The notes beneath the pieces were generated by a model. That model made no database searches and was not told the DNA's origin. It was given only the letters and a program-made list of their open reading frames with translations. This document shows, piece after piece, positions 21,209-43,764 of a stretch of 49,850 bases of DNA; position 1 is the stretch's first letter, and the number at the start of each line of letters is the position of its first letter. Position numbers and translations under genes: made by a program. Origin of the DNA: a virus; IMG/VR virus record IMGVR_UViG_3300010885_018384, positions 1 to 49,850 of that record. One strand, 5' to 3'.

Positions 21209-23008
21209 TTATGACACAAATGTCCACGCATTTGCAATTACTTGATATGTTTTTACAATTCTACTGATGTTATATGCAGGTGTAGGAATATCAACATCAC
21301 TAAACGAAACATCAGTAAGTGCAGATCCTGTGCCCGATGGGGTGTTAAATGTTGCTGTTGATTCATTTAGATAAGAATTTAGGTTAAGCGTTGGTCGAAC
21401 TTCTGAAACAATTGTACATAAAATTCTAGCAACTGTTCCGTTGTCGTACTCTGCCACCGGAGCAATGGATTCTAGATCGCCGGCAATTTGTTCATTGGTT
21501 CTGCCATCGCTAATATCCATTGACAATGCTAATGACTTTGCTTTAATCTGCACATCAACATAATTTTTAGTAGTAGCGTCTGATATTCCTACAGGTTCTC
21601 CTATTTCAGTAATTCTAGCGGAACCGTTTAATACAACATTACCTGTTCCGTTAGGATACACTTCGATGTCACCGTTGGCATTAACTGAAGAAATTCTATT
21701 GTTATTAACAAATATGTTATCAATGGTAAATTCTGCCTGGACTCCAAATATATTGATACCGGTTGCTCGAGTTACTGCATTTGTCAGTTCGTATGTTGCT
21801 TCGCCTTCGTTGTACTTTAATATTTCAACTCCACTAATCCTAAATGATTTACCAGTCTCTAAATCAACATTTTGATTAAAAACCCACGCATCTCTATCAA
21901 GACTATAAAAAATTTCTTTATGGCCGCCAGCACCTGACGATCTTAATATAATACCACCGCCGTCTGCTTGTGCGTTAGTTAATATAGAACTATCTGAACT
22001 TGTTCCTAATTCAATTAGTTTATTTTCTACTCTTAATGTAGAAACATTAACAGATACCGTATCTCCTAAAACCGTTAAGTTTCCGTTAACTGTTAAGTTA
22101 CCACCTACTGTAGTTTGACTACTTAAAAATCCGTCATAGATTTTTACAGTTTGAGAACTTGGCTCAATAACTATTGCATCATCTTGTACTGCACCCCTAC
22201 GAGCACTAAATCTAATAAATTTATTCTGTGCAACGTTTTGTAACAGCAGGTCTCCATTAGTTTCTAATAGCTTAACTTGTTGCGCATTGCCAATTTCAAC
22301 TCCTAGCGTAACTCCTAACTTTCCGTCAATTACTCCGCTGGTGTCGTTTCTAACATAGGTAGTGTCTAATCTTCCACCTAATTTTTCAGAATTAGTTGCT
22401 GTTACATTAAATTTAAGACCAGCAATAGTACTGGCATTGAAACCAGGAATAATAGTTCCACTGAATCCTGAGATCGGAATCTTTGGAGTAAACACTGTTT
22501 CACTACTTGAAAAAATACCGATCAATGTTCCGTTATTATATAGACTGGTGATAACCTTGCTTTGGTTTAAAGAATCTAGAATTGTAGTTACACGAATTCC
22601 GCTGATACCTTGACTCAGACCGTAACTTGGTCCTAGCAACAAAGTATTCTCGCCGTCATAAAAATACAACTGTTTGTTTGTGTCGTCAAACCATAGATCA
22701 CCCGGAGTTAACGATGTTGGTTGTGTGGCGGCAATAGTGGCAGAACTAACTGGTTGGAATGCGGTTCCGTTGTAAACTTTTAATTTTAATTCAGTAACAT
22801 CAAACCAAATCTGTCCTCGAATAGGACGACTAGGTCTTGCTGTGCTGGCAAAATTCTCTAATAGTTTAATTAAATTTTCATTAAATGCTTCACCGAACCC
22901 ACTGTAATTTTTACCTATAAGAGTAAGATCAGTTGATAAATCATCAATTTGACCATCCGATATTGTGGTTAATGTTGTTCCGTCTGATTTGGTAATTAAA
23001 TATGCCAT
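21209..23008 (-). CDS. Tail fibre protein with shared N-terminal domain
   Basis: A 599-residue protein. Residues 1-130 are the shared domain (GFGEAFNENLIKLLENFA, GQIWFD, GDLWFD, LLGPS). A central section reads GGNLTVNGNLTVLGDTVSVN, STLRVENKLIELGT, ADGGGIILRSSG, a series I recognise from cyanophage tail-fibre-like proteins. The C-terminus (NLNSYLNESTATFN, TPAYNISRIVKTYQVI, NAWTFVS) is a unique beta-rich tip. The start ATG is preceded by GAGAT. It sits second in the fibre array, downstream of the collar-domain fibre. Host-contact role inferred from position and composition. Confidence 0.75.
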   Translation of the reverse strand: MAYLITKSDGTTLTTISDGQIDDLSTDLTLIGKNYSGFGEAFNENLIKLLENFASTARPSRPIRGQIWFDVTELKLKVYNGTAFQPVSSATIAATQPTSLTPGDLWFDDTNKQLYFYDGENTLLLGPSYGLSQGISGIRVTTILDSLNQSKVITSLYNNGTLIGIFSSSETVFTPKIPISGFSGTIIPGFNASTIAGLKFNVTATNSEKLGGRLDTTYVRNDTSGVIDGKLGVTLGVEIGNAQQVKLLETNGDLLLQNVAQNKFIRFSARRGAVQDDAIVIEPSSQTVKIYDGFLSSQTTVGGNLTVNGNLTVLGDTVSVNVSTLRVENKLIELGTSSDSSILTNAQADGGGIILRSSGAGGHKEIFYSLDRDAWVFNQNVDLETGKSFRISGVEILKYNEGEATYELTNAVTRATGINIFGVQAEFTIDNIFVNNNRISSVNANGDIEVYPNGTGNVVLNGSARITEIGEPVGISDATTKNYVDVQIKAKSLALSMDISDGRTNEQIAGDLESIAPVAEYDNGTVARILCTIVSEVRPTLNLNSYLNESTATFNTPSGTGSALTDVSFSDVDIPTPAYNISRIVKTYQVIANAWTFVS

Positions 23009-23018
23009 ATTTTATCTC

Positions 23019-25289
23019 TTAGAATACTGGTGGTCCTGAACGGATAATATAGTTCAATGTTAGATAGGGATTCATAATTGAAAAACTCTGTCCCAACTGT
23101 GTTGTTGTATAACCTAATACTCCTCCGCTGCTTGGAAGATATTGCATTTGTCCAGGTGTTGTAGGACCTCGACCTAAGAAGGCTCCTTCTCCTGGCTCGA
23201 TACCCGGAGGACTTGCTGTGTCTAATCGAGTTGCATGATATTGATTACTGCCTTTAGTGCCGGCGTCATTGAGTGCTTTAAAATCGTGTTCATGTTGCGG
23301 AATATTAGTTGCGGTTAAAGTGTTTCTATAATCGCCGCTTGCGCCGCCTAGCGTTTGTGCCTGTATATCATCGACTCTAGGAACTAATGTTGCAGATCCT
23401 GTACCGCTGCCTACTCCTGTTGCAGTAAATGTAGTGCCTATTGTTGAAGAACTGGCTCCGATACTTGGCCAATTAGTTGATCCAACACTTGAAATTGTGT
23501 ATCGGCGACCAACAACAAAATTTCCTGCAGGAATGGCTTCGCTACCTGGAAGGCCGCCGCCTGCATCTATAAATCCGCCACCCAAAGGAACAGTGTTATT
23601 ATTATTCATGTCGTGTTTGCCGAGTGAGAAACGACCTCGCATATCGGGCAACACAAAGGTTAGACCTGCTTGACCCCTAAACGGTGTGCCATAAATTGTT
23701 CCTATAACATTGTACAATGTTAGATACTTGGCAATTTCTTGCTCACTGCCGTCACATAATAAATAACCATAAGGGGCTGCGGATCCGGCAAACGGCAAAA
23801 TTGTGCCAACAGGTACCCCGAGATCTCCAACAAATACATCTCTAGTTTCTTTTAATAGTCCTTCGCCTGCCCTAAAAACCAGCACAAAATCATCAGCTTT
23901 TGATACATTAGGGCTAGGTTGAACTTTACTGGAAATAATACCAGAAGTAATAACTGTATCAAAAGTTTTTGTGGTTCCGCCAACTTGTCCATCAAATGTA
24001 ATATTTGCAGAGGTTACATCTCCCTGCATCTTAAAAGTTGTTGGAAAGCGCAAGTTAGTTGCTGTAGTAGCATTACCAATAATGTTACCTTCGAGTGCTC
24101 CGACTAAAGTATCTGCAATAAGAGTTTTAGTTCTAACAGTATTCCATCTTCTTGTTAAACTTCCACTATCATATTTTTCAGTTTCTCTTGGTTCAATTGA
24201 TGTTATAATAGTTTGACCGTAGACATCGATATTTTTTCCAATCAATGCATTTTTAGTTACAGCAATACCTCCGGCTGTTCTAAAACTACCGTTACTAAAA
24301 TTAGTGCTTTCAGTAATATTGGTAAGAATTAAACTTCCGTCGGTTTTAATATTTCCGCTAACAACCAGTGCTTCGTCGGGTGCAACTACATTAATACCAA
24401 CCGTATTGTTAACAATTTTTAAAACAGTATCAGGAACACCGTTTCTGTTAGTTTGTAAATCAATACTGGCGCCGGCCGTAGCATTGTATATTTTTGCGGC
24501 AGTTGACGATGCCGTTAAACTAAATGTTCCATCAACTCCAATAGTAAGACCAGAATTATTTCTAATATTAAAATTTTGTTCTGTTGTATTAGTTGTATCA
24601 GATCTTAAAAATTTTGCGGCGGCAACCGCAGTGCCGGCAACATTTAAAGCATCTGCCGCTATTGCTGTTCCGTAGAACTTTGGAAGAAAACCGCCATCAC
24701 CAACATCCAAACTGGTAATATTAATACCTGTCTTAATTGCTGCAAATCCGTTGATAGAATTTTTAGGAGTAAAGCTATCCTTGCTGATAATAATAATTGG
24801 TTTATCTTCTACATAAAAAGTTACAATAACTCTATCAAAGTTATCACTATCAATAATAGACTCTACAACAGGCCCAGATTGTAAACCTGTAGAAAAGTTA
24901 GGTCCAACTAGAATCCAACTTGATCCAGAGAATACGTATAGCTGTTGATTAGTAGTGTCTACCCACAGTTCACCAACTTTAGCAGATTCTACTGAAGGTT
25001 CACTAGTGCTTTTTTGAATATTACTGGCTGCTTTCCATTGGGTGTTGTCCCAAATTTGTAAAATACCTTCAAGTGAGTTATACCATAGTTGTCCCTCAAT
25101 TGGGTTGGTTGGGGCTGAGCCGCCGGCAAAATTTTCTAACAATGCTAAAAAGTTTTCGGCAATAATTTGTCCGTAGCCGGTGACATTGCGACCCGGAAAA
25201 TCTAAACTTGTGTCTGCATTAGAAGTATTATCATAGACTGTGATAGGAGTCTTGTTTTCTCTGTCGGTAAAATTTACAATATATGGCAT
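23019..25289 (-). CDS. Tail fibre protein with phage tail collar domain
   Basis: A 756-residue protein. The N-terminal 135 residues are the shared fibre domain (GYGQIIAENFLALLENFA, GQLWYN, GELWVD, LVGPN). A tail collar domain spans about 491-565 (VPVGTILPFAG, PYGYLLCDG, LPDMRGRFSLGKH). About residues 585-635 hold a separate module (VGRRYTISSVGSTNW, GTTFTATGVGSGTG) that I know as a recurrent insertion in marine phage structural proteins. The end is QHEHDFKAL followed by NPYLTLNYIIRSG, the usual finish of collar proteins such as T4 gp12-type short fibres. A sensible role is receptor binding or irreversible attachment. AGAGG precedes the ATG. Confidence 0.85.
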   Translation of the reverse strand: MPYIVNFTDRENKTPITVYDNTSNADTSLDFPGRNVTGYGQIIAENFLALLENFAGGSAPTNPIEGQLWYNSLEGILQIWDNTQWKAASNIQKSTSEPSVESAKVGELWVDTTNQQLYVFSGSSWILVGPNFSTGLQSGPVVESIIDSDNFDRVIVTFYVEDKPIIIISKDSFTPKNSINGFAAIKTGINITSLDVGDGGFLPKFYGTAIAADALNVAGTAVAAAKFLRSDTTNTTEQNFNIRNNSGLTIGVDGTFSLTASSTAAKIYNATAGASIDLQTNRNGVPDTVLKIVNNTVGINVVAPDEALVVSGNIKTDGSLILTNITESTNFSNGSFRTAGGIAVTKNALIGKNIDVYGQTIITSIEPRETEKYDSGSLTRRWNTVRTKTLIADTLVGALEGNIIGNATTATNLRFPTTFKMQGDVTSANITFDGQVGGTTKTFDTVITSGIISSKVQPSPNVSKADDFVLVFRAGEGLLKETRDVFVGDLGVPVGTILPFAGSAAPYGYLLCDGSEQEIAKYLTLYNVIGTIYGTPFRGQAGLTFVLPDMRGRFSLGKHDMNNNNTVPLGGGFIDAGGGLPGSEAIPAGNFVVGRRYTISSVGSTNWPSIGASSSTIGTTFTATGVGSGTGSATLVPRVDDIQAQTLGGASGDYRNTLTATNIPQHEHDFKALNDAGTKGSNQYHATRLDTASPPGIEPGEGAFLGRGPTTPGQMQYLPSSGGVLGYTTTQLGQSFSIMNPYLTLNYIIRSGPPVF

Positions 25290-28900: not shown

Positions 28901-31900
28901 ATAACTGCACCAGCAATTGGCAATGCGGTTAATTTTAATTTGCCTCTTAGCAGACTATATTCATCAGTGCTAGATTTATAAAATGTAATTTCATAATCAC
29001 TGTCTAAAATAATCTCGTCATTGACAATTACAGAAATTTTTGTTTTATCTCTTGTTGGAGGATAATTTAATTCAAAAATAGCAGTGAATCCGTCAGCAAC
29101 GAATTCTTGACTGTAGGTATATTCTGCATAGGTTCCCTCTTTGGTAATTCTATCAAATTTAACTGTAAGATCAAAAGTTCTTGTTTTGCTGTCACCAATG
29201 ATGGCCACAGCTTTTGCAATACTAGTAGATGTGCCGTTACCACCAACAATACTAACTGATGCTGAGGTATATCCTGTGCCAGCAGTTAACATTTTAATTC
29301 CAGAAACAGATCCGTTGGCAATATATGCTTGGGCACTGGCTCCCGAGCCGTCTCCTGTGATTACAACACGAGGAGCTGCTTTATAATCTGCACCTGCATT
29401 GGAAATAACAATTTCAGTGATAGAATATGTATGATTGTCTTTCCACCATTTGTAAGGATAAATGTCAATAATACTAGAATTTTCTAGTACAGGAAGTATT
29501 TGTCCTTCTTTGACATCGTATGCAGGCGGTACATCAAAGTCTGTTATTGCTGCTCCTTGACGATCAATATCGGTGTATCTACTGGTGTATTCTCTAATGG
29601 TTGTTCTAAAAGGTTTTACTTCTTCTAGATAATTTTGGAAACTGGCTAAGTTATCATTCTTATAATTAGTCTTTTGTTCTAGATCTCCAATATTATGTAT
29701 TGCATTTAAGAAGCTGGTTTTAAAGGCCCAATCAACATATAACTGCTCTGAGAATATATAACGAATGCTGGCAAAGAATAATTTATTCCATTCTGCTCGT
29801 AGATCGTCAATAAAGATATTTTCCTTTAAAGCAGCAAATATAAATCTTAATTCTTGTGTTGGTTGATTATCGTAGGTAACTTCGTCGTAGGATCCTTGGA
29901 AATCATAGACCTTAACATTATAAATTTCTTCGTTAATTTTAATTGTGCCGTTTTCTCGACCAATTAGAATATAATTACCAAGGATATCGCCGTTGCCGTC
30001 TGTAACTCTTTCAAGTAATGCCCAACCGCCGTTTGCATATTCTTTAATCTTAACAATGTCGCCAACGGTTATTTTAATTGTAGGTTCAAGATATAAATCT
30101 AATATTTCTTTTACGATACGAGTCACAGAACTGTAACCAGTAGCATACCAATCAATGTAGGTCCAATATTTGGTCGTGTCGTAAGATTGTACTGTGCTCT
30201 TGAAGAATCCTTCTCTAACGCTGTCCCAGAAATAGATAGCCCAGTAATTGTTATAGGTTATGTCATTTTTAACTAACACAGAAAAGTTTCTTACTGATAC
30301 ATCAGCAGTGGTATATTTTCTACCTTTCTGTACAATTGTAACTGAGGTAATTCTACCTTGAAGATCAAGCGTGACTGTAGCTTTGGCTCCTAATCCGTCA
30401 CCGACTATTTTAACCGGAGGTGCTGTACGATATCCAAATCCTGCATCAATAATGTTAATTGTATCAATTTCACCATCAACAATATTTGCACTTAACACTG
30501 CTGGGCTAATTCTAACAATGCCCACTTCTGCTAATTCAACAGAGGTATCCACTGTTATATCATAAAGATTTAGTGCTGCATTAGGAATCTCTTCAATTTG
30601 ATTTAGATTTTCAAAATCGATTAAATCAGCAAAAGGTCTAGTTGAAAGAATATCATTACTTCTATCGATTGCAATTTTTAATGCTGTTCCACGATCAACA
30701 AACAGTGTTTGTATAGGTCTAAAGGCTAGACCGTAACGCTGTTTGGGTAACAATGTAGGATCAGGAACTGGATTACCTGCTTGATTGAATCCAACAAGAC
30801 TGTCAATCCATTTTTGCTCTAGCGCATTGCTAGGCAAACTATCTGCAATTCCTTCAGTCAACAACTGATACTCAGTGTGCGTAGCATTAGGTCTGCGTTC
30901 TGAATTGTAGTATTCAATGTTTATTAACGCAGAGTCGCCTGTGATAACTGAACTTAGATTGTAGGTTAAAAACTTGTCAGTGTCAATGATAGCAAGGATC
31001 GGGGTACCGTCGCTGGCAGGATTTTCAATTAAAGACGCAATACTAGAGGCTGAGATATTTCTTCCCGTTACACCTGTAGGAATGATTGTTTTATTCTTAA
31101 CCCAGAAATAATATTTTGTTCCAAAAGACAGACCTGTATTAGGATTTGTAAATCTCTTAATAGAGTAGGCTGCATTACTATAGAGAGGTTGTCCAGAAAT
31201 ACCTGCTGACAATCCATCTGTGGTGTCTGCCATCTTAGACCAATCAGTTGGGCTCATTGAGCTTTCAACCCACTCGTAAATGTCAATACTAGCACCTGGC
31301 GCAAGTTGATTCCAGTTACCAGCTCTATAGGCAAGATCCCCTTGCTCATAATGTGCCCATTTGGCTGCGCTGATGTTCCACCAAATTACCCCAACATTCT
31401 TTTCAAACCAGGCTTGGTCAGCATCAACTTCAACTTCAGTAGTACCGTTGGTATAGGTTGCTGGATCGTATAGAGTTTTGAATTTGATTTCTTGTTCTGC
31501 ACGACCAAGAATTTTTAATTTGTTTACATCAATAATATCTAGGTCTGCAATCTTTAGATATTTTTCATCGTCATAAACTGCTACACTCTTTAGAAGATCG
31601 ATATTCACCATAGGTGATTCTTCTGCAAGAATTGTAAAGCTGTCTTTGGTAACATCTTTTCTAAATATTCTAGTCATACCAACTTTTGTACCAGTTGGGG
31701 CATAACTTGGTGAGCCTGTTACAATCACAGATGCTGTGCTGTCTAACGAATATCCAAATCCTTCGTTGTCTAATAGATCAGCTTCTAGTTTTTCAGATAG
31801 GAAGTAGGTTTGATCTTTAAGTTCAAACACATAGACCTGACCAGGATAGCCTTGGTCTTCTGAGAATGTTGTGCGGCCGCCATCAAATCGTGTTCTGGCA

Positions 31901-34900
31901 GATAGGTCAAAGCGTGTTGACAGTTTGTAAGGAGTATTCTTTGCTCCAACTACTACACGCTCACCACGCTCACTTATGGAAACACTAAAACCAAATAGTT
32001 CATTGTTGTAAATTTCATAACTTTGAAGTTTTTGTTTTAGTCTATATTCTGGAATTGTCGAATCGGTGTCATATCTAAAGATGTAGACACTACCTTGATT
32101 TTGTAAATTAATATCTGCCTGCGGACTAGAGATAGCAATGGTATTGCCGGAGTTATCGATATCAATTGCAAATCCAAATAAGTCTCCAGAATTAATTATT
32201 TCATCTGGAGCCAAATCACTAACATCAGGCAAACTACCTGCGTTAATTGTCTGCATTAGACTATAGAAACCATAGGCATTCATCTTATAAATGTATACTT
32301 TACCAGATGTTGCATCTGATACAGCTTCAACTAATCCCCATGGAGATCCCGATACAGGATTTGCTCCTGTTGAAGATGCAGAAGCTAATCTATAATAATT
32401 GCCGGTCCATTTAACTACATCTCCAGCTACATATGTTTGATAGCTATTCCAGATGCCTCTATAATTAGTAAAATATTGTCCGTCGCTGATTGGAGATCCC
32501 ACTACTAATGTCATACCGTCTCGGCTCATAGTCATACTGGTTCCAAATCTGTCACCGTCTTTAACTAGTTCAGCAACTTGGTCAGCAATCAAGGAACCGG
32601 CCGTTGGATCTGTACTATCATCTTCAAGTGCAATATTTGTAGGCAATGAGCTTTGGGTTGATATAGGATCTAATCGTGTCCACTGATTTGAATTGATAGA
32701 AATGGTACTACCGTCACCTGTTTGATCTTCTAGAGATTGCCATAGTGCGTTGTTGTACCATACTATAGCGCCAGCTTCGTAAAATCTAGCTCCGGTGTTA
32801 TCATAGACTCCTTTGAAGTTTTGATTTTCAATTAGTTGCCATTCTTTAGCAATGTTAGGATATTTTCTAATTATGGAATTACCCATGTTTAGAGTTGCCG
32901 ATGAGTAATAATAAAGTATACTAGAAGTATTTTCTGTTACTGTAATTTGAACTTTTCTAGTTGTAGCGGTAGTAAATCCTGCAATATACTGTGCCTGGGT
33001 AACTGTACGATTGTCTAAAAGGTAAGTAACTCCTGTGGTGTATAATGTGCCGCCGCCTAGAACTCCGCTGATATTATCATTGCTGAAATTTAACGGATGT
33101 TTATTAGTTACTGTGCCATCGACTGGGTTAGGATAATAAACATTGCTGAGATCTGTTTGATCAAATATGTAGGTATTGCCGACCAGCAACGATAGATTAG
33201 GTCTGTATTGTTCATTGATGTAATATTTAGAACCTGAGTCCATTCCCTGAGGAGGGGCGACTGTTACTTTATAGATTATAGTTTCTGAAGTATCAGCAAT
33301 TAATGGAGCATATTTGTAAAGATATATTCGGCCTTTGTTATTTTCTGCACCCGGTGCAGAAATAGCCATATAGTAATTACCAGAGTCAACACCTATAGTT
33401 ATTTTAGAACCAAACTGTTCGTTGGCATTTTGTCTTGGGCTTACAAAGCTGTATCGTTCAACCCAATTCTGCCCGCCCCATTCGTATAAAGATACTGCGC
33501 CCTGTTCTAGGTAGCCAGTATTAGAACCTTGTTGATTTGCTGTGATAATCAGGGCTGGTTCCCAATCTTCCATTGTGGCATCGATTCTAGCAAAGGTACT
33601 ATCAACTCCAACTCGAGTACTATCGACTCCTGTATAATCTTGTGCATAGATATCAACTTTGGCTCTCCATAATTTTCCTTTGTGTAAAACTATGTCGCCT
33701 TGGAAATAATCTAAATCACTATTATAAATTTCTTGATAATCTGATTTAATTCCAGTAGCCCTTGGACTACCAATAGCCAACCATTTACCGTCTGGACTTA
33801 CTGCAAGACTTTCTCCAAATACTCCGTTGGCGGCTGCGCTGATGCTGTTGGGTCTTTCAAAAGTTTGTAAAGGTTTTAATCCATCTACTCTTTCTAAATA
33901 AGAAACTACAATATTACTTGCTGGCATCGCTGAGACAATCTGAGTTAAGATGTCAATATACAACACAGAACTACCATTACCTAAAGGTGTAGTTGTTCCA
34001 TATTCTGAAATTTCAGTAGATGCAAATAGTTTTTGTTTTTCAGAAACTTCCCAATTACCATTTATGTTATTGTCTATCCAAAACTTAGCACCGCTAGTTA
34101 ATGTTGCGGCTATGGCAAGATCAACTGATTGATAATCAGTAAATCTAGCGGAACTAAACAATTCTAAATTAATAACAGTGCTTGTTTCCCATTTTGGTTC
34201 TTTAGCATCTTTACTAATTTGAATCACTATGGTTTTTCTATCAGGAACTTCTGTAATCTTATAAAAGCCTTCTAGATTTTCAATATTTCTAATACCAAAG
34301 ATATCTCCTACTGCTAGACCATGTGTTCTACCTAGTACAATTTCAACTCGTGTTTTAACTACATTAACATCAGTAACTAACAACAGTCTAGAAATATTGT
34401 ATCGCAGTACAGTCCAAGAATTGTTATAAAAAGTAATCCATACATGAGAATTTTCTTCAAAATCTGCAATGTTTAATGCTAAGATGTCATCATAGTTTTT
34501 AACAGCAAAATCAACATCAAAAGAATTTACATATCCTGCTGTTCGAGGAGTTAATTTATATTTCTTAACAGGATTGATATTAGCTGTAAAAGGTATTGGG
34601 GCAATTGTAAAATTCTTTTCAGGTACTCGCATGTACAAATCTAGTACATCTGTGCTGGAATCTGTAGGTGCAATAATCACTGGCTGTGGATTAATTTTAA
34701 AATCATTCTTTAAGATTCTAAATTCAGTTTCATTAAACTGATCAGTGCCGCCTAGTCGACCAACACGGAATGCCCATTCTTCATTGAGTTCGATACTGCC
34801 AGTATTGGTTCTGCTTAGTTTGTCAAATACTTTAGTGATAGCATTTGCTGTGCCTTTTTCACGGATAAATCCTTGGTACAACTTAAACTGGCTAACGGCA

Positions 34901-37900
34901 TCTTCGGCCATGTTCTGCAAATATTCTCGTGTTTGATATCCAATAACATGGCGACTTAGGTCTCGTTGACTGCTACCTAGTCCGTCAGCATCAACATCAT
35001 AGTAATCTTCAAATTGATTAATTCTATAATCAAAGTTTGCAACCAGTCCTTTAGTAGGAGTGGAATCTAATTTTTCCCAGATTGTTGTATCAAATAACTC
35101 AGCGCCTTGAACATTTTGTTTACTAACCCAGTTGTAGGATTTGTAGGAAACAATGTCGCCTAATCTGTAATCAGTATAAGGACTCCATTGTTGAATGTTT
35201 ACATTGTCAAACAAGAATCCAGGACTGGTATAATCGCCGTCCCAATCTACTGTACGGAATCCACGACTCTTGATACGCTCTTGACGATACCCTGTAGTCT
35301 TGTCATAGATAACATCATTGAAAACTGTGCGGTCATCAAATACTGTGATGTGTTCTTTAAGAACAAAATAAATTTTGATAAAATAGATGCCTTCGTTGGT
35401 GTTAACTGTACTGACTGTTACTGCTTGGAAGTCTCGGTTAACATTTAAGAATATCGGTAACAGTGGTGCTCCGTCGCTTTTAAAAATTTGATAGTCATAG
35501 AAACTGTCAAAGAGACTGTCGGCAACTCCCAACGGAATTTTCATATCGACTTGGCTGGCGCTTGGGCTTAGTGTTAATAGAGATCCCACTGCCCAGTTAT
35601 GCTTGGTCCAGAATAGGAATTCTTTACAACTGGTTCCCCAGTTATAGGCTACTTGATTTTCTGCATCATATCGATCAAAGCTGAATCCTTGTGTTTTTAG
35701 ATAGGCTTGATAACCTAGCAAGAAATCTACCACGCCTTGGATCTTGGTAATAACAGTTCCGTAGTAGAGTTGTATCGGTTTTAGTTGATTGAATGTTTTT
35801 CTAAAGTAAGCTTCAACTCCGCCAGCCACTGGTAACTTGGGTAAAATTTTCCAAAGACTCTTATCAAATATTTCAGTACTAGTATGAGACTTTAATGCAC
35901 GATAAAATGTATTTTGAGTTCTTACAACATCACCGTTGCTGTAAACTTTGTCTGCGGCCCAGTCTAAGAAAGATACGCTAGTGCCTCCTACCGATGTCAA
36001 CGGATCGCTGCTGCTGGCAATAGGTTTAAAATAATTAAAGTAAGGTTGTTGATTATCGTAGCCTTTGATTTTCCAGCCTTCGGCTAATTTTTCAATCAAC
36101 ACTCCACTATAGGCAATACCTATCATTGGAACACCTACATTAAAAATTACATCGTAATTTTCATTTGGCACATAGACACTGCTGGATGTTGCACTTGGAT
36201 TTTTACTATCTAACAAATATTTCTGTTCTGTTTGATCAACAAATCCGGACATTCTTGTAGAAATTTTAATATCTAGATTATTTAATCTTGTTAAGAATAC
36301 TTGCGGGTCTAGATTTTTACTACGAACATAACTAGAAACAAAAGTTACCAATCCTGAAAGTTGTGTGCCGCCTACCACAGGAACTAACAAATTTGAAATC
36401 TTTGAAAATACACCAGATTCAGCTGATACTGTTTGTCCAAGTTGATTCACTGACATTCTAGATCGATCAAAACTATCTGTAATAAATTCGAATGGTTTTA
36501 ACAGGCATAGTGCTGAAATTACAGAAAAAGGCCATTCGCTGCTAGATCTCCACGCAGCTTCTACTGGGCTAACATCGCCTGGTCTATAATCACCTTGATT
36601 ATTAATTAAAGTAAAGTCGTTAGCAACTCCGGAATCTAAAGGACTCAATAGTCTCCCGTCGCCGTCTGTAGGAATATGATTTAAAATACTAGGTCTTGCA
36701 TAACGATCATGTGTGCCGGCACGAGCACCTTGACGAATAACACCGTCACGGATATCTTCCCAAAGAATTAAGTTGCCTCTAGTGTAAGGTGCAGGTCCAT
36801 ATTCACTTTCCCACCATGTTGGCTTTTCACTGAATCCTAAAATTTCCCAAGGGCATGTATGTGGGCGATCAGTGTCATAGAACCATTGGTATACTCCTCT
36901 CCAGTATCCTGGTAAACTTTGCTGTCTAGTAGGATCTGTCATGTTACTGTAAGTATAGGTAAAACTATTCTGAGTGTCAAGGTACTGATCGTTATTTGTG
37001 TAATCAATATCGGTATTAGATACCCAGCGTAAGAAATCCTGCAGGATAATAGCATCTAATTCTGGTTTTGTGTATAATGCATTTCCATAGTATCCGCCAA
37101 ATACTGTGTCAATGTCAAAGATATTTTCGTTATATTCTTGTTTAATGTTGTTGTAAATTCTTAATTCTAATTCTAAAATTGCATCATCTCTGTAATCATC
37201 ATAGGCAGCGGTAATACTACCATCATGTCCTTGTATTACTAAGCGAGGAGTTACAAATGTGTCATCAAGATAAATTCTTGGCAAGTACTTTTTGTACAGG
37301 CCTAGCTTGGTAGGAGTTGACGGAATATAGTTAAACGCTGTTGACGAATATTCTCTAATTACAATTTGATCGCCTTCGGTGAGTGTTAATGAAAGTCTAA
37401 CAAATCCAAATGTAGCGTCAAATACATAGTCTGTTCCGTGAATTAATTGTTCGCCATTACGGTAAACATAGACTGCACGACGACTGAGTTCTGTAAGATT
37501 AAAAGTTTGACTTAGTGCAAATACTTTTATTCCTTCGTCTTCGACTAGATATATAATGTCAGCGTGAGCACCATTTCCAACCATATCGCTATCTGCAAAC
37601 GGGTCCGACGAGTCTTTTGTTATGGTCATTGCCGCAATGACTTCGTCAACGAAATCAACCACATTATCTAACGGCATGGCTTCGGCGATTCTTTTTAAAA
37701 ATTCATTTTTAAAATTGCTGTAAGATCGTAAAGAATGTTGAATAGACTTTATGATGTTAATATTTTTATCGCAGAGCAAAGACACTGCCATTGGTGCAAT
37801 GCCGGAATGCTTTAAGAAACGCATACAACGATGTTGATAACCGTCAATATTTCTTAGATTGCTATTGCCAGGGTAAACGCCTGAAAATTCTGTTTCAATT

Positions 37901-40344
37901 TCAATTGCTGACGACAAATGATCAATTGCTTGCCCTAGAGTAAACGCTGTTAGATTGTCATTTAACGGATTCTTTTCTAGGCCGTGTGGTATTTGATAGT
38001 ATCCCTGATCTGGATCAAGGTCAATGTAGATCTTGATAGATACTACATCATTTACTGCAAATGCCTTAATAAAAGTAAATGTTCCATTTTCTCTAGTGTA
38101 ACTATCTAAATGTCTTTGTCCGTTTAGATAAAAGATAACTGTAGACGGAAGAATACTAAACGCTGCCCAGTCAACTGTTGACAGTGTGACTTGATTTGTT
38201 ACTTCAGTAACAACTACGCTATCTAAAATTGGCTGCTGATAATCGTTGTCTGATTTAACCCATCCATTGGCAAATTCATCAAGCGGATTAAATCTATAAA
38301 ATCCGGTGTTTAAATTTTTTGTTAAAGTCTCTTGGTTAACAGAATAAGAAAAACTGTCAAGATCAAGATTGTATGTGAATAAAATATCCCCAACATTGTC
38401 AATGTTTAAGTAGTCTAGGCTGAATCCTAATTCACTGTCAGCAATGCTATTACCTATTTTATAACTTAGTATCGGTGATCCAATAAATGTTGACGACGGA
38501 TATGTTGTTGTATCCGAAAAACTAATACCGTTGTTGTCAAATAGATCAAATAAAGGCATTTGATTAGCTTTGGTCTTTTCTTGACTAGCTGTCCAATTAA
38601 CGCCGTTAAAATGATACATTAGGCCTTTATTAACATTTCCGCCTCTTACCAACACTCCTTCTCCTAAAATAGGATCAGAATCAACCGTTGTCTTTAATGT
38701 AATTTGTCTAACATTGTTATGTGTTATAAAATTAACCTGATAAATTTTGTTATTAGCAAGGCTGTCTGTGTCGGCAACAAATAAAACTCTGGCACCCTGA
38801 TACAAGAATTCACCGTCGATACTGTATCCTTGACTACCTTCAATAGTAGAAAAAATATCAGTTGTAAAAGTGTCAATAAAATCTACAGAAGTTTTTGCAA
38901 TACTACCGTGATTAAATAATTGTAGATTTGATCGAAACTCAATAATAGGGCGCTTGGCTCTAAAGCTGTCTCCCGCTGCAAAGTCGGTGCCGTTTAATTT
39001 ATGCGCCTGCTCAAGAGTTGATTTATGAAACCAACGATTGTAACGACTCCACGGATTTGCATCGATACTAGATCTACAAATTGCAATATAATCTTTTTCT
39101 CCAGGATAAGAAGTAGCATCATCAAATGGTTCTGTATCAAATCCTGTATTGTCAAAAATTACTTCAGGGATCTGGCTGGTAATAATCGGTACTGTTAAAT
39201 CCGAAAATTTAATTAGAGTTATTTCTCGGCCAACTTTTTCCACTAACCAATTATCCTTAGCGTACTTTGTAGGAGTAACTTTTCCGGCAAATCGTACAAT
39301 TAGGCCGTTGGTAAATTCGACACCGTTGCTGCTGGTATAGGTTTGTTTGCCAAGAATTTCTTTATCAATATTAATGCTAGTATTTTCTTCAATATCTTGG
39401 ATTAGAAATCGACCGAACCTATCGGGATTAATTGCACTTTGATAGTAAAGAATATCTGGTGCATCTAATGGAACTTCAAAGGTAACAGTACCGTTGGTTG
39501 CGCCATTATTAGTTACTCCGTTAAAATAATCAAACTTTGATGTTTGTACATTTTCATCTACAAGTTCCCACTCTGGGCCTTCAACAATTGTGCCATCGAT
39601 GCTGGCGGTAACAAAGGTCAATGCTCTCCACAATTTGCCATCATATACTGCAAGTTGATTAGGAATATAAGGAAGGAAAGGATTGTATTTTAAACTGCCT
39701 GTATCAAAAGCTGTTCTAATGTAAAAACCTTCTCTAGGACTATTAACTGCAAAATTGTATGTTTGTCCTCTATACAAGGTCAGTGTAGGATTATTTGTTG
39801 CACCGTCTGGATAAAATATCCATGTCGATGTTGTACCCTGACGAACTCGATAGGTACTGGTGATTGCATCTCCTTGTCCAAGAACTTTAACACTTGGAGG
39901 GCCGCTTGGAACCCAATAGTACTCACGGAAGTTTACAAACTTATCCCACTCAATAGGAGGATTCCAGCTGTAATGATCTTGACTGGTAATTAAATCGTCA
40001 CGCTCGTTAAAATTGTTGAAAAATCTAAGTTGATTTTTAAAGTCGATGTAGTCGTAGAAATTTTCAATATTACCTCGATCATCCGATAGCACTACTCCCG
40101 GTTCTAGTTGATATCTACTGCGTAGTGTATTGTCACTGTCAAGATAAATGTCAGATCCTTTGTAGGTCTTGCCATATCTACGACCAACATATCCTACAGT
40201 TTTTTGTAGAACACCCGGCTGGACCAAGGGGTCAATGACTCCGGCCATAAATTTACTGTTTGTTTCAGTTTTAAAAACCTGAGGAAGTAAATCTACTGTT
40301 CTTCGAATCGGTAGTCCGCTTTCTGGGAAAATTTCATTTGCCAT
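25966..40344 (-). CDS. Giant virion structural protein (4792 residues) with beta-propeller, CBM-like and beta-sandwich repeats
   Basis: An uninterrupted 14.4-kb gene right after gp6. The N-terminus (SGLPIRRTVDLLPQVFKTET, KTVGYVGRRYGKTYKGSDIY) matches very large structural proteins I recall from T4-like cyanophages and occupies the gp7 position; homology to gp7 is not shown. Six FG-GAP-like repeats lie at about residues 2172, 2310, 2597, 2720, 2780 and 2859. At least seven carbohydrate-binding-like modules (WxxxxxYxxGDxVxxxxxxY...W) lie near 221, 1460, 1718, 2203, 2518, 2630 and 3904. Eight or so VxVNGxxL...DxIxI beta units lie near 732, 957, 3766, 4154, 4234, 4327, 4372 and 4481. Two AGxxYxxxP repeats lie near 3272-3351 and 3649-3722. 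Few cysteines, no signal peptide. Probably a peripheral baseplate scaffold or adhesin. Confidence 0.8.
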   Translation of the reverse strand: MANEIFPESGLPIRRTVDLLPQVFKTETNSKFMAGVIDPLVQPGVLQKTVGYVGRRYGKTYKGSDIYLDSDNTLRSRYQLEPGVVLSDDRGNIENFYDYIDFKNQLRFFNNFNERDDLITSQDHYSWNPPIEWDKFVNFREYYWVPSGPPSVKVLGQGDAITSTYRVRQGTTSTWIFYPDGATNNPTLTLYRGQTYNFAVNSPREGFYIRTAFDTGSLKYNPFLPYIPNQLAVYDGKLWRALTFVTASIDGTIVEGPEWELVDENVQTSKFDYFNGVTNNGATNGTVTFEVPLDAPDILYYQSAINPDRFGRFLIQDIEENTSINIDKEILGKQTYTSSNGVEFTNGLIVRFAGKVTPTKYAKDNWLVEKVGREITLIKFSDLTVPIITSQIPEVIFDNTGFDTEPFDDATSYPGEKDYIAICRSSIDANPWSRYNRWFHKSTLEQAHKLNGTDFAAGDSFRAKRPIIEFRSNLQLFNHGSIAKTSVDFIDTFTTDIFSTIEGSQGYSIDGEFLYQGARVLFVADTDSLANNKIYQVNFITHNNVRQITLKTTVDSDPILGEGVLVRGGNVNKGLMYHFNGVNWTASQEKTKANQMPLFDLFDNNGISFSDTTTYPSSTFIGSPILSYKIGNSIADSELGFSLDYLNIDNVGDILFTYNLDLDSFSYSVNQETLTKNLNTGFYRFNPLDEFANGWVKSDNDYQQPILDSVVVTEVTNQVTLSTVDWAAFSILPSTVIFYLNGQRHLDSYTRENGTFTFIKAFAVNDVVSIKIYIDLDPDQGYYQIPHGLEKNPLNDNLTAFTLGQAIDHLSSAIEIETEFSGVYPGNSNLRNIDGYQHRCMRFLKHSGIAPMAVSLLCDKNINIIKSIQHSLRSYSNFKNEFLKRIAEAMPLDNVVDFVDEVIAAMTITKDSSDPFADSDMVGNGAHADIIYLVEDEGIKVFALSQTFNLTELSRRAVYVYRNGEQLIHGTDYVFDATFGFVRLSLTLTEGDQIVIREYSSTAFNYIPSTPTKLGLYKKYLPRIYLDDTFVTPRLVIQGHDGSITAAYDDYRDDAILELELRIYNNIKQEYNENIFDIDTVFGGYYGNALYTKPELDAIILQDFLRWVSNTDIDYTNNDQYLDTQNSFTYTYSNMTDPTRQQSLPGYWRGVYQWFYDTDRPHTCPWEILGFSEKPTWWESEYGPAPYTRGNLILWEDIRDGVIRQGARAGTHDRYARPSILNHIPTDGDGRLLSPLDSGVANDFTLINNQGDYRPGDVSPVEAAWRSSSEWPFSVISALCLLKPFEFITDSFDRSRMSVNQLGQTVSAESGVFSKISNLLVPVVGGTQLSGLVTFVSSYVRSKNLDPQVFLTRLNNLDIKISTRMSGFVDQTEQKYLLDSKNPSATSSSVYVPNENYDVIFNVGVPMIGIAYSGVLIEKLAEGWKIKGYDNQQPYFNYFKPIASSSDPLTSVGGTSVSFLDWAADKVYSNGDVVRTQNTFYRALKSHTSTEIFDKSLWKILPKLPVAGGVEAYFRKTFNQLKPIQLYYGTVITKIQGVVDFLLGYQAYLKTQGFSFDRYDAENQVAYNWGTSCKEFLFWTKHNWAVGSLLTLSPSASQVDMKIPLGVADSLFDSFYDYQIFKSDGAPLLPIFLNVNRDFQAVTVSTVNTNEGIYFIKIYFVLKEHITVFDDRTVFNDVIYDKTTGYRQERIKSRGFRTVDWDGDYTSPGFLFDNVNIQQWSPYTDYRLGDIVSYKSYNWVSKQNVQGAELFDTTIWEKLDSTPTKGLVANFDYRINQFEDYYDVDADGLGSSQRDLSRHVIGYQTREYLQNMAEDAVSQFKLYQGFIREKGTANAITKVFDKLSRTNTGSIELNEEWAFRVGRLGGTDQFNETEFRILKNDFKINPQPVIIAPTDSSTDVLDLYMRVPEKNFTIAPIPFTANINPVKKYKLTPRTAGYVNSFDVDFAVKNYDDILALNIADFEENSHVWITFYNNSWTVLRYNISRLLLVTDVNVVKTRVEIVLGRTHGLAVGDIFGIRNIENLEGFYKITEVPDRKTIVIQISKDAKEPKWETSTVINLELFSSARFTDYQSVDLAIAATLTSGAKFWIDNNINGNWEVSEKQKLFASTEISEYGTTTPLGNGSSVLYIDILTQIVSAMPASNIVVSYLERVDGLKPLQTFERPNSISAAANGVFGESLAVSPDGKWLAIGSPRATGIKSDYQEIYNSDLDYFQGDIVLHKGKLWRAKVDIYAQDYTGVDSTRVGVDSTFARIDATMEDWEPALIITANQQGSNTGYLEQGAVSLYEWGGQNWVERYSFVSPRQNANEQFGSKITIGVDSGNYYMAISAPGAENNKGRIYLYKYAPLIADTSETIIYKVTVAPPQGMDSGSKYYINEQYRPNLSLLVGNTYIFDQTDLSNVYYPNPVDGTVTNKHPLNFSNDNISGVLGGGTLYTTGVTYLLDNRTVTQAQYIAGFTTATTRKVQITVTENTSSILYYYSSATLNMGNSIIRKYPNIAKEWQLIENQNFKGVYDNTGARFYEAGAIVWYNNALWQSLEDQTGDGSTISINSNQWTRLDPISTQSSLPTNIALEDDSTDPTAGSLIADQVAELVKDGDRFGTSMTMSRDGMTLVVGSPISDGQYFTNYRGIWNSYQTYVAGDVVKWTGNYYRLASASSTGANPVSGSPWGLVEAVSDATSGKVYIYKMNAYGFYSLMQTINAGSLPDVSDLAPDEIINSGDLFGFAIDIDNSGNTIAISSPQADINLQNQGSVYIFRYDTDSTIPEYRLKQKLQSYEIYNNELFGFSVSISERGERVVVGAKNTPYKLSTRFDLSARTRFDGGRTTFSEDQGYPGQVYVFELKDQTYFLSEKLEADLLDNEGFGYSLDSTASVIVTGSPSYAPTGTKVGMTRIFRKDVTKDSFTILAEESPMVNIDLLKSVAVYDDEKYLKIADLDIIDVNKLKILGRAEQEIKFKTLYDPATYTNGTTEVEVDADQAWFEKNVGVIWWNISAAKWAHYEQGDLAYRAGNWNQLAPGASIDIYEWVESSMSPTDWSKMADTTDGLSAGISGQPLYSNAAYSIKRFTNPNTGLSFGTKYYFWVKNKTIIPTGVTGRNISASSIASLIENPASDGTPILAIIDTDKFLTYNLSSVITGDSALINIEYYNSERRPNATHTEYQLLTEGIADSLPSNALEQKWIDSLVGFNQAGNPVPDPTLLPKQRYGLAFRPIQTLFVDRGTALKIAIDRSNDILSTRPFADLIDFENLNQIEEIPNAALNLYDITVDTSVELAEVGIVRISPAVLSANIVDGEIDTINIIDAGFGYRTAPPVKIVGDGLGAKATVTLDLQGRITSVTIVQKGRKYTTADVSVRNFSVLVKNDITYNNYWAIYFWDSVREGFFKSTVQSYDTTKYWTYIDWYATGYSSVTRIVKEILDLYLEPTIKITVGDIVKIKEYANGGWALLERVTDGNGDILGNYILIGRENGTIKINEEIYNVKVYDFQGSYDEVTYDNQPTQELRFIFAALKENIFIDDLRAEWNKLFFASIRYIFSEQLYVDWAFKTSFLNAIHNIGDLEQKTNYKNDNLASFQNYLEEVKPFRTTIREYTSRYTDIDRQGAAITDFDVPPAYDVKEGQILPVLENSSIIDIYPYKWWKDNHTYSITEIVISNAGADYKAAPRVVITGDGSGASAQAYIANGSVSGIKMLTAGTGYTSASVSIVGGNGTSTSIAKAVAIIGDSKTRTFDLTVKFDRITKEGTYAEYTYSQEFVADGFTAIFELNYPPTRDKTKISVIVNDEIILDSDYEITFYKSSTDEYSLLRGKLKLTALPIAGAVIVIDYEKADDILEAVDRINKYYSPTRGMIGKEINQLMTGIDFGGVQIQGTTFDVSGGWDALPWFTDTWDSVEPNADFYYVVDSQEYTATGFDSRALIWKLGSVVQLGNKHYRAVIDNIDKPPVEFPNVWEELTILLPFTPAIGQQLSVYLKRSGLGSPRSIDTLDSAGAPVVVYDQGIEESRTIRIDDVNFGGAGVTNLSAIMPTVIGDGSTNSIDIQQYVQIENGDTLIFRPMDSDGTVNITDINIIDTNITGGSLSAVSGAYITATGTAAEDIVVDGSKFISPDQVPAPEENIPGQVIDSVSIKVFHTVQTGATPLQSRILKSNGRDKRFAIGLTVLDSASVMVYVDKVKYEINADSSIEYIIDYNTNEVVFTNAPIRDSVIEIISIGIGGAALLDYQEFEADGDTLFFLTRANFADTASVVVTVDGVDVDALPINSSEVLDITNKTLIQFANKPERRQIVKIVCLGANADVDSTGSSVVRVNQQTLTFDGSTLSYDLDQFVNLTRASASGAILVEVNGVQLKGVDTEFIVYNGTNNVISIGKDPLEAPNTATQSNIQVYINGELKRNILDYVYDGNENTVTVDTEVLAINDEIKIIIDIRSQYTFTGNNIVFNGTSFVENDSTTTLQEGDQIIVTWFSEYPSMNIISDQYTGGKVQYQLAREPVSASYIWIYKNGRRLTQEQDYAVSIPRNVVYLKTTTLITDEIKIVQFGNYIRRAPLAYEVFKDMLNIYHFNRFSIDKAVTLSQDLNYYDQIIRVTDTTNLFEPIKSRNIPGTVYINGERIDYFEKTTTTLSQLRRGINGTAIKEIHSLGSSVVDVGRVENLPYNESQERLDFVSDGSSLLIGPLNYVPKAAVRSTWTRTTIPTGYEPCDQIEVFAGGKRLRKDPVTVYDQTVNITSPQADIVLEAEFSVDGVNDYIRLTSTIPAGTRITVIRRIGKTWYDRGETTASSGVTLLKNSSSISEFLKQKSTELPE

Positions 40345-40353
40345 ATTCTACAA

Positions 40354-43300
40354 TTACCCTAAATTTGTTGATGATATAACTGCCGTAGCATCTACACGAA
40401 TTTCACTAGCGGTGATTGCTGTTACAATAACAATATCATCTACAGTTGCACCGCTGACAAAAATTTCATCGTTGGCACTTTGAATTTCAAACAGACTACC
40501 AAAACTCTGTGTTGGTTGTCTAGGAACAATTACCAAGTTACTTAGATCTGGAGTGACTGCATTTGTGATGTATGTAATCAATTCGCCAAGATAAAATCTA
40601 TCACCGAAGTCCCAGTTAGCTACATCAAAGAAATCGTTAATTGCTGAAATGATTCTAACTTTAAGATCGTTGTCATTGATTGTTTTATTTGGATTTTTAA
40701 CAATCTTAAATTGTGCTTGCAGAGCATAATCTGCTGTTGAACCAAAAAGCACTTTATAGTTCACTGGATGGTATATTACTTCATCGCTAATTGATTTAAT
40801 CTCGCCTAGTGATGATCCAAAACTAATACGCAAACTGTCGCTGTTAGGAGACTCTGGTCTTGTCGCTAGGCCGCCGCTCAAAAACTTTCTAAATTCAGTA
40901 TCATAACTTCTTGTTAATAAGTAAACATCAATAATATTACTAACACTAGGATCAATTCTGCGATCAACATTAGCATTGTGAATATATTGAAATTTTAGTC
41001 CAGAACGACCGATATTTGCTCTATAGCCAGATTCTAGTATTAGACTATTTGATGCCAAATCTACTCGTTTAACACGATCTTCTGCACTGTCATAGAAATA
41101 AATTAATTGCCCGTCATCAAACTCGTTAACATTAATTTGATTTTCATTCTGTCTTACAAGTATTAAATCAGTGCTGTTATCAAAATAAGTATAGACGATG
41201 TTGCCAAAGCTGTCTACTACTTCTGTAAAAAATAGATAATTTAGGGCTTGGTCAGCACCTACTATCTGTTCAAATGCATCAGCGTTGTCAATAACACCAT
41301 CATCGTCGCTGTCGCTGAATGCAACCTTAATTTCTTCTGAGCTTTGATATCCGTCTTCAAACTTAATAGAGTCGTCAACTTCAAATACAAGATCTTGCTT
41401 CAATGCTGAAGCATTATTAGGCATTGTGTTAATGCCCAATACTCGAACTTGATCTTTGATGGTCTTGCCTGTCTTTCCGTCGTAGATTTTTTGATTAACA
41501 TCGAAGTAAAACCTATTCTGTTCGAGACTACCGAAGATATAATTTAAGGTCCTAACACGGATTTGATACTCATCAGATTCTTTAGTGAAAGCAATAATCC
41601 AACTGGTGTCTAGATTATTATTTGTTGTGTCTCCTGCTTTACCTAGTGCAAATGCATTAATTAAATCAATGTTTGGGGCAGTAATAATTTTCCAACTTGC
41701 GGCAGCAACATCAAATCGAAGACCAAAGTTTTTGTTTTCTGCACACAAATTTACCATCTGTGTTTCTAATGCATCCGGCAAATTGTTTACAAATTTAGGA
41801 ATAATTCTGCTGGCGATTGCTCCGGTAGGCACAGTATCATTGAATATAATTGGACCTTTGCCGGTACTAAGTGTGCCGCGGCCTGCATTGGTTCCATCAC
41901 CTACTACTCGAATAACCTTGGTCCATAGTCTGTCTGTTTGATCTAAATCATTTGCGTCGGTGATAACTAATTCACCTCGTTTAAAACTCTTGCCTGCAGG
42001 TGGCACAAATTTAATCATAGCACCTGCGGCAACATACTTTAATGTGTTGGTTGTATAAGAACTTACTTTTTGTAAAGTTAGGTCAACTGAATTGATAAAA
42101 TATCCAGTGCTTTCATTTACATCTGATGTAATTTGTGTCCATTTAGTATTTGTGTCAGTGAATAAAATTTTATCGTATTTGGTAAAATAGAAATTATAAA
42201 CACCTGTGTTGGTAAACAACGGTTCGACGCTTTGACGAATAAAGTTAACTGTGTCAATTCTACTGACTGTTTTAAATGCTAGACTTTTTTCACTTTCTGA
42301 TTTATAAATTAAGCCATCATCAGCAAATACATTCACACTGGAATATTTTCCGCTGGCGTCAATGATATCAAAATTGCGACTAACTCCACTAGATGTTCTA
42401 TTAATGGCTTTGACTTTTAAAATGTCTTGACTGCTGGATAATGGCGCAAGATTGTAGTCTTCAGCCGTGATCATTCTGTTTTGTGTGTAGTATTGGGCAG
42501 GAGCTTTTGTTCTAATACTTTCTACCGATTCTGCAGACACACTATTGCTTACTGTATATTTCAAGCTCATGCTTATCTTAAGGACATGACTCTGACCTGC
42601 TTTGTTTATATACGGAACTTCAATGTTAATGCCGCGCATTTCATTAGGAAGGATGCTGTATGAAAGACCGTTACTTACACGGTAGTAGGCTCGGAAAGGT
42701 CCTTGTGGTAAATTTCCGTATACACCGTCGGCAAAAATTAAGTCAATCTTATCCGAGTTCTTTGTAGATATAGAATATATATTTCTAATACTCTTTTCAA
42801 TACTATTGTAGGCAATATTATTGCCAACTAGATTAGAAACTTTTGTCCACTCATCTAACTGGGAGCCATTAGCTGCTAGCTGAAATAACCAAACATCGCT
42901 ATTATTGATATTTTCAGCATCGATTGCTACCTTTTCGTTGGTGGTTGGGACTGCAATTGAAAAATCTGCAAGCTCTAGGCTACCTTGCTTAAACATAAAA
43001 AAGAATCCAGTATCGGGACTTGCTGCACCCTTACCGTCATTCTTATAGATAAATCCCATCTGATTACCAGGAACTGGGGGTTCTTCGTAGATTTCTTCAG
43101 CACCTTTAAAAGAGGCGCTAACAATTTCGAAAGGCATAGATCTGGCAGCTACATTTTTACTAAACGAGAAAATTGGAACTTGCAAGGTACTAGTGTTGAA
43201 ACGATATTGTTCTGTAGGAGTACCTTGTATTGTGGCATTTCCTTGACTACGTCCAAATTCTGTATTTTGGCTCATGGCTGCATTCATTATTGTAATGAAC

Positions 43301-43764
43301 TGCTCTCTCCAGTTAGGATTAGTAGGATCATTCCATTGTATGACTTGTCTTGCTAGATTTTTTCCGTTGTTGTCTAGAATTGCTGCTGTGGTTGAAACTG
43401 TATCAACTTTTAAAAAACCTTTAGATGTTATATTCCTCTTGGCGTTATAACTCAACATACGAGCTATGCGAAGGACGCTTTCTCTACGAGAAGCTAATTC
43501 AATAAAGTTTTCTCTGCTGGCTAGATCAATACGGAATGCTAGGCTTTGTCCAAGGAATGCAACAGCGTCAATTAATGCTAGATATTCACTGGATTCAATG
43601 TAGTCGTTGAAATCTTCTGGATAGTTTTCACGCAAATAGGTAATAATGACGCGGCGAAGATTTTCAAAGTCATAGCTTTTGAAATCAGCATTTTTGAATG
43701 TCTGATAGATTGTGGTCCAATCTTGATTCAGTATTAAATTTGTTTGTCTTAGCGTGGTTGTCAT
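40354..43764 (-). CDS. 6: Baseplate wedge protein gp6 (baseplate J family), enlarged
   Basis: A 1136-residue protein. The N-terminal part (DFENLRRVIITYLRENYPED, ESSEYLALIDAVAFLGQSLA, ASRRESVLRIARMLSYNAKR) is the conserved gp6 start. Later TAEDYNLAPL and the C-terminal EIKSISDEVIYHPVNYKVLF, TAVTPDLSNLVIVP are also typical. T4 gp6 has 660 residues, so roughly 450 extra residues are inserted in the middle. Near residues 811-826 lies DSDDDGVIDNADAF, a thrombospondin-type-3-like calcium loop. It forms the inner baseplate wedge ring with gp25 and gp53. A GGTAAATA motif lies 22 nt before the ATG. Confidence 0.93.
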   Translation of the reverse strand: MTTTLRQTNLILNQDWTTIYQTFKNADFKSYDFENLRRVIITYLRENYPEDFNDYIESSEYLALIDAVAFLGQSLAFRIDLASRENFIELASRRESVLRIARMLSYNAKRNITSKGFLKVDTVSTTAAILDNNGKNLARQVIQWNDPTNPNWREQFITIMNAAMSQNTEFGRSQGNATIQGTPTEQYRFNTSTLQVPIFSFSKNVAARSMPFEIVSASFKGAEEIYEEPPVPGNQMGFIYKNDGKGAASPDTGFFFMFKQGSLELADFSIAVPTTNEKVAIDAENINNSDVWLFQLAANGSQLDEWTKVSNLVGNNIAYNSIEKSIRNIYSISTKNSDKIDLIFADGVYGNLPQGPFRAYYRVSNGLSYSILPNEMRGINIEVPYINKAGQSHVLKISMSLKYTVSNSVSAESVESIRTKAPAQYYTQNRMITAEDYNLAPLSSSQDILKVKAINRTSSGVSRNFDIIDASGKYSSVNVFADDGLIYKSESEKSLAFKTVSRIDTVNFIRQSVEPLFTNTGVYNFYFTKYDKILFTDTNTKWTQITSDVNESTGYFINSVDLTLQKVSSYTTNTLKYVAAGAMIKFVPPAGKSFKRGELVITDANDLDQTDRLWTKVIRVVGDGTNAGRGTLSTGKGPIIFNDTVPTGAIASRIIPKFVNNLPDALETQMVNLCAENKNFGLRFDVAAASWKIITAPNIDLINAFALGKAGDTTNNNLDTSWIIAFTKESDEYQIRVRTLNYIFGSLEQNRFYFDVNQKIYDGKTGKTIKDQVRVLGINTMPNNASALKQDLVFEVDDSIKFEDGYQSSEEIKVAFSDSDDDGVIDNADAFEQIVGADQALNYLFFTEVVDSFGNIVYTYFDNSTDLILVRQNENQINVNEFDDGQLIYFYDSAEDRVKRVDLASNSLILESGYRANIGRSGLKFQYIHNANVDRRIDPSVSNIIDVYLLTRSYDTEFRKFLSGGLATRPESPNSDSLRISFGSSLGEIKSISDEVIYHPVNYKVLFGSTADYALQAQFKIVKNPNKTINDNDLKVRIISAINDFFDVANWDFGDRFYLGELITYITNAVTPDLSNLVIVPRQPTQSFGSLFEIQSANDEIFVSGATVDDIVIVTAITASEIRVDATAVISSTNLG

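Follow-up and report, generated by a model that had tools for sequence, protein, structure and literature searches.

In beta-propellers built from four-stranded, up-and-down blades, the B-C and D-A loops share one face, and the opposite face bears the A-B and C-D loops. The integrin I domain is a whole domain inserted between blades 2 and 3 of such a propeller. An inserted I domain is found in nine of the 18 human integrin alpha propellers, and bacterial integrin-type propellers comprise seven FG-GAP repeats, with the motif and a calcium site in all seven blades (PMC3192720). Among phage tail proteins, T7 gp12 forms a seven-bladed propeller in a tail nozzle that has a separate fibre dock (PMC6702177). 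A search of open-licence papers yielded none on FG-GAP propellers in phage baseplates or on an arrangement of the type reported below. Homologues of the protein analysed here exist in isolated jumbo phages (PA5oct gp355, Atu_ph07 gp180, and the giants of Phosso, SCTP-2 and PBECO4), which are about 26-30% identical to it over the blocks corresponding to residues 1-1935 and 2911-3200 and occupy the same gene position; the slot between the two blocks spans 170-1487 aa in these isolates and gives no propeller match.

The window, i.e. the whole 49,850-nucleotide stretch of viral DNA analysed (positions 1 to 49,850 of IMG/VR record IMGVR_UViG_3300010885_018384), carries the gene for a giant protein directly after a gp6-like gene, within a gp25-gp6 cluster, which corresponds to the place of gp7 in T4 (Table 1). 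No homology to T4 gp7 was detected when this protein was compared as a single sequence (hhalign probability 0.1%), and a match to PHROG 438 'baseplate wedge' at 3641-3730 was dropped as evidence for gp7, since it spans only a short repeat-like stretch. The giant protein matches PHROG 10938 'virion structural protein', with residues 765-1712 as the best stretch, and the record of its homologue in the Pseudomonas phage PA5oct bears an ESI-MS/MS annotation. Judged by locus and relatives, to which it owes the label used here, it is probably a tail baseplate protein of an uncultured jumbo myovirus. Two tail-fibre-like genes lie downstream (21209-23008 and 23019-25289), and the first 200-300 residues of their products are alike at about 30% in relatives. 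Two related loci (L074 and L075) have the giant reading frame open only from approximately the equivalent of window residue 2548, reflecting an upstream frameshift, a stop or an assembly fault.

Table 1. Features of the giant protein and its locus, in window coordinates; folds and blades are predicted.
Feature	Residues	Window position	Strand	Basis or remark
gp25-like gene		43809-44243		Upstream of giant gene
gp6-like gene		40354-43764		Giant gene comes next
Giant baseplate-locus structural protein, 4792 aa		25966..40344	minus	Single open reading frame
Conserved N-terminal core	1-1935	34540..40344	minus	Common to isolated jumbo phages
Seven-bladed FG-GAP (integrin-alpha-like) beta-propeller with inserts	2119-2910	31615..33990	minus	AF2, Foldseek, Pfam
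Blade 0, without FG motif	2127-2162	33859..33966	minus	Four predicted strands in both models
Blade 1, CBM5/12-like module 1 in B-C loop	2176-2301	33442..33819	minus	
CBM5/12-like module 1	2202-2268	33541..33741	minus	Pfam CBM_5_12 17.5 bits, E=0.0043
Blade 2, cupredoxin-like domain in C-D loop	2311-2505	32830..33414	minus	
Cupredoxin-like domain, blade 2 C-D loop	2350-2497	32854..33297	minus	PHROG 708 E=1.3e-19, ligand motif in relatives
CBM5/12-like module 2, between blades 2 and 3	2508-2560	32665..32823	minus	Pfam 14.6 bits, E=0.035
Blade 3, CBM5/12-like module 3 in B-C loop	2600-2701	32242..32547	minus	
CBM5/12-like module 3	2622-2676	32317..32481	minus	Pfam 20.9 bits, E=3.7e-4
Blade 4	2723-2773	32026..32178	minus	Pfam FG-GAP_2 31.3 bits
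Blade 5, 33-aa B-C loop	2784-2853	31786..31995	minus	
Blade 6	2863-2909	31618..31758	minus	
Conserved block behind propeller	2911-3200	30745..31614	minus	Conservation

Six FG-GAP motifs follow one another in this one reading frame, at residues 2176, 2311, 2600, 2723, 2784 and 2863 (window positions 33819 down to 31708, minus strand). Residues 2090-2960 match Pfam FG-GAP_2 with E=5e-19, as do all 28 aligned homologues, and the protein scores 55.8 and 68.6 bits against the FG-GAP family PF14312, for which the curated cut-off is 23; scored alone, blade 6 has no Pfam match. At every FG blade the motif is retained in 74-77 of 77 homologues. Structure predictions were built on alignments of 26-28 sequences. 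The AF2 model of window residues 2090-2960 reached a pTM of 0.69 and a mean pLDDT of 66.5, with parts of the inserts below pLDDT 50, and that of L062, a relative without the large insert encoded on a 353-kb contig, reached a pTM of 0.81 and a mean pLDDT of 76.8. The 28 propeller strands of the L062 model are arranged as seven four-stranded blades in one domain, and most of them are also predicted in the window model. Foldseek searches of the PDB with the L062 model returned mainly integrin alpha headpieces, with TM-scores up to 0.58 on the target and low values (up to 0.39) on the query, as expected from the large inserts. In the viral structure library BFVD, the best named matches were FG-GAP proteins from uncultured phages and from giant viruses.

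The region is accordingly modelled as one seven-bladed propeller, predicted to consist of six FG-GAP blades and an N-terminal blade devoid of the motif; a six-bladed form was dropped, since the models show this additional four-stranded blade. Taken by itself, the structural part of the explanation put forward here is very probably correct. That FG motifs might occur by chance in a tail protein rich in beta structure but lacking a propeller is a reading which could draw on the missing Pfam match of blade 6 and the missing motif of blade 0, but the Pfam E-value and the L062 model rule it out to the point of being extremely improbable, and both the integrin alpha matches and the near-complete retention of the motif among homologues speak against it as well.

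With faces assigned from predicted strand order and the general rule for propeller loops, all three CBM5/12-like modules would share a face, opposite that of the cupredoxin-like domain. The ligand motif of CBM family 5/12 is a tandem aromatic pair (WW), and tandem Trp is typical of chitin binders. This tandem-Trp chitin motif is missing from all three modules of the window, and a loose WW-type pattern in the modules was found in 0, 1 and 24 of the 77 homologues. Each module alone scores below the Pfam PF02839 cut-off of 26.2 bits, the whole region reaching 31.1 bits. The conserved core of the giant protein contains two further CBM5/12-like stretches, near residues 1462 (window 35845-35961) and 1720 (35059-35187), the former exceeding the Pfam cut-off by itself (30.2 bits). 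A stretch weakly similar to the modules (profile E=0.022) is also present in Cis13, a tail-fibre-like protein of the Anabaena contractile injection system (PMC8894136).

The insert of blade 2 matches PHROG 708 and tail-fibre families and is of a kind that also occurs in tail and baseplate proteins of phages. It can be aligned with tail-protein domains containing a His and Cys-x2-His-x2-Met, the set of residues by which type-1 copper proteins ligate their metal. Searches of Pfam and PDB sequences with the domain gave no match, so its designation as cupredoxin-like follows from the ligand motif in relatives; in the window model the domain falls partly below pLDDT 50. The window copy keeps the invariant His and Met and has lost the Cys and the second His of C-x2-H-x2-M, both of which are retained in the L009 homologue and in tail proteins of L023 and L028. 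L009 (7684-8130) reads YYYCNSHLNMG, and the window (32854-33297) and other near relatives read YYYSSATLNMG, a pattern that would fit either repeated loss of the presumed copper ligands inside a tight clade or their regain in L009. The L022 homologue has about 150 extra residues nested within the cupredoxin-like domain, an insert in an insert. A different phage protein of 1990 aa (L023, 4645-10614; the same protein occurs in L024-L026) contains consecutive CBM5/12-like repeats and, after them, a cupredoxin-like domain with the motif intact.

The initial annotation of this DNA had listed six FG-GAP-like repeats in order, as the single reading frame, the Pfam match and the homologues bear out, and had proposed that modules interrupt a propeller on a baseplate protein. 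Such an interrupted propeller agrees with both structure predictions, which gather the blades into one propeller instead of separate folds, with the integrin alpha matches and with the relatives that lack single inserts, and the baseplate placement accords with a giant protein that follows gp25-like and gp6-like genes at a baseplate locus. Its details needed revision: the motif-less blade at 2127-2162 had been missed, one of the four modules assigned to CBM5/12 (~2350-2497) is the cupredoxin-like domain, and only module 2 lies between blades, modules 1 and 3 being placed inside blades 1 and 3.

Scans of viral contigs recovered relatives with identities between 100% and about 44%. A scan with the conserved core ahead of the slot was limited to the best 80 of 582 relatives, and 82 distinct slots were extracted from all loci. 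The propeller is present in all 77 environmental slots, which represent the closest relatives, some found via the propeller itself, rather than a survey of the whole family, and in none of the five isolates (PA5oct, Atu_ph07, Phosso, SCTP-2, PBECO4). The propeller block gave no tblastn match in 50,697 phage records, and no PHROGs family matches the propeller.

Across the 77 aligned slots, the length of the A-B and C-D loops hardly varies, the blade 2 C-D loop being the exception, and module-sized loops recur at the B-C and D-A positions of blades 1-3. The three CBM5/12-like modules are retained in nearly all homologues; the blade 1 B-C loop, which holds module 1, measures 72-117 aa in all 77, and module 2 is missing from L121, L108, L144, L163 and L125. 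L163 lacks both modules 2 and 3: its blades 2 and 3 are only 24 aa apart, and its blade 3, a bare canonical blade with a B-C loop of 13 aa, reads FGYSVAYSQDGSTLVVGSPGFEPEDSSKTNTGKVYIYKIDS. Most relatives are without the cupredoxin-like domain, and in seven of these (L058, L061, L071, L073, L079, L093, L095) blade 2 has 4 aa connecting strand C to strand D. Given this direct junction and the short loops of L163, the propeller loops carry true insertions. Three unrelated insert types occupy the blade 2 C-D slot across lineages, namely the cupredoxin-like domain and two others. L176 bears an extra CBM5/12-like module in the C-D loop of blade 1, on a face that has no such module in most relatives, and in L109, L110 and L124 the blade 6 B-C loop contains a GAGYT-type module roughly 100 aa long.

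A FastTree tree of the giant-protein core was rooted on the isolates. On this tree, the bare blade 2 C-D loop occupies the deepest branches, the cupredoxin-like domain maps as a single gain (support 100), and the distribution of module 2 takes three changes; the direction of these changes is tentative because of long branches near the root. Residues 1936-2700 show the lowest conservation in the giant protein, and the modules are 51-54% conserved against 55-70% for most blades, as would be expected for exposed parts.

The phage propeller resembles that of integrin alpha chains, its best PDB fold matches, in having seven predicted four-stranded blades, FG-GAP motifs and a whole domain in a loop. 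It differs from the integrin alpha propeller (PF01839) in belonging to a phage tail protein and in hosting several inserted modules of more than one kind, some of them within blades. Between strands A and B, the DxDxDG calcium loop occurs in none of the 77 homologues in five blades and in one of 77 in blade 4. With the motif in six of seven blades and essentially no DxDxDG loops, it is integrin-like but not a strict member by the features given in PMC3192720; bacterial integrin-type propellers are likewise prokaryotic and of seven repeats, but have the motif and calcium site in every blade. As in T7 gp12, a seven-bladed phage-tail propeller is combined with extra domains, one of which exits a blade-3 loop in gp12, whereas gp12 belongs to a short-tailed phage and forms a hexameric nozzle closing the DNA channel, and the part of its description considered here reports no such FG-GAP inserts (PMC6702177). 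The FG-GAP proteins that BFVD lists from giant viruses and from uncultured Caudovirales are also predicted viral propellers, but they are separate proteins of other viruses, whereas the present block has no sequence counterpart in phage records or PHROGs.

The explanation preferred here, with a probability of about 0.5 when host contact is included, is that a rigid seven-bladed FG-GAP propeller, set in a giant protein that occupies the baseplate-wedge position in jumbo myoviruses, would act as a mounting platform with fixed, slow-evolving blades, certain loops of which take up whole small domains. One face, formed by the B-C and D-A loops of blades 1-3, would present the three CBM5/12-like modules, and the other would offer one main slot, the blade 2 C-D loop, where cargo could be exchanged; in the window this cargo is a cupredoxin-like domain whose presumed copper ligands have been lost. 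The platform would be exposed on the baseplate, where the modules may touch the host surface weakly prior to sheath contraction. Several observations count against host contact: the propeller block is not hypervariable, unlike known receptor-binding tips, the CBM scores are weak, tandem Trp is missing, the three modules are near-universal, and like modules are found in the conserved core.

Most of these points would equally suit a structural docking hub, in which propeller and modules bind other virion proteins, such as tail fibres or neighbouring wedges, with no contact to the host surface. The weakly similar stretch in the tail-fibre-like Cis13 (PMC8894136) and T7 gp12, a propeller in a nozzle with a separate fibre dock (PMC6702177), lend further weight to this credible reading, which nevertheless falls short of even odds: about three lineages lack module 2 and one lacks module 3, the propeller block evolves fastest within the giant protein, and the cargo of the blade 2 C-D loop is unrelated among lineages. 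Compared with a purely structural hub, an exposed contact platform is slightly more likely. A specific glycan-receptor platform, with the modules as sugar-binding sites, is a narrower form of the contact explanation and overlaps with it. The initial annotation had favoured sugar-binding loops on a receptor platform, and the Pfam family name, the common predicted face of the three modules and their lower conservation relative to the blades would fit that proposal; it is nonetheless unlikely in view of sub-threshold CBM scores and the separate tail-fibre-like genes downstream (21209-25289), and sugar binding is not supported, since tandem Trp is missing and like modules occur in the conserved core, to which the weak likeness to Cis13 may be added. 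In terms of function, the propeller is most likely a platform exposed on the baseplate that would serve for contact or docking.

The picture that the models suggest is one of a tidy, variable mounting platform on the virus, and a grip on host sugars is not supported by the sequences. A bolder and more tentative view would see in the integrin-like baseplate propeller of this large environmental jumbo-phage clade a standing adhesion platform that arose convergently with the I-domain integrins, one face bearing a near-fixed set of CBM-like modules and the opposite face exchangeable cargo. No isolated member of the jumbo-phage clade carrying the propeller was found here. The 77 relatives, with single inserts present, absent or replaced, constitute a natural experiment in the uptake of whole domains by a propeller. 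If the module-bearing face is exposed, rules of domain insertion into propellers would become testable, and these phages would possess a baseplate-borne contact platform apart from their tail fibres.
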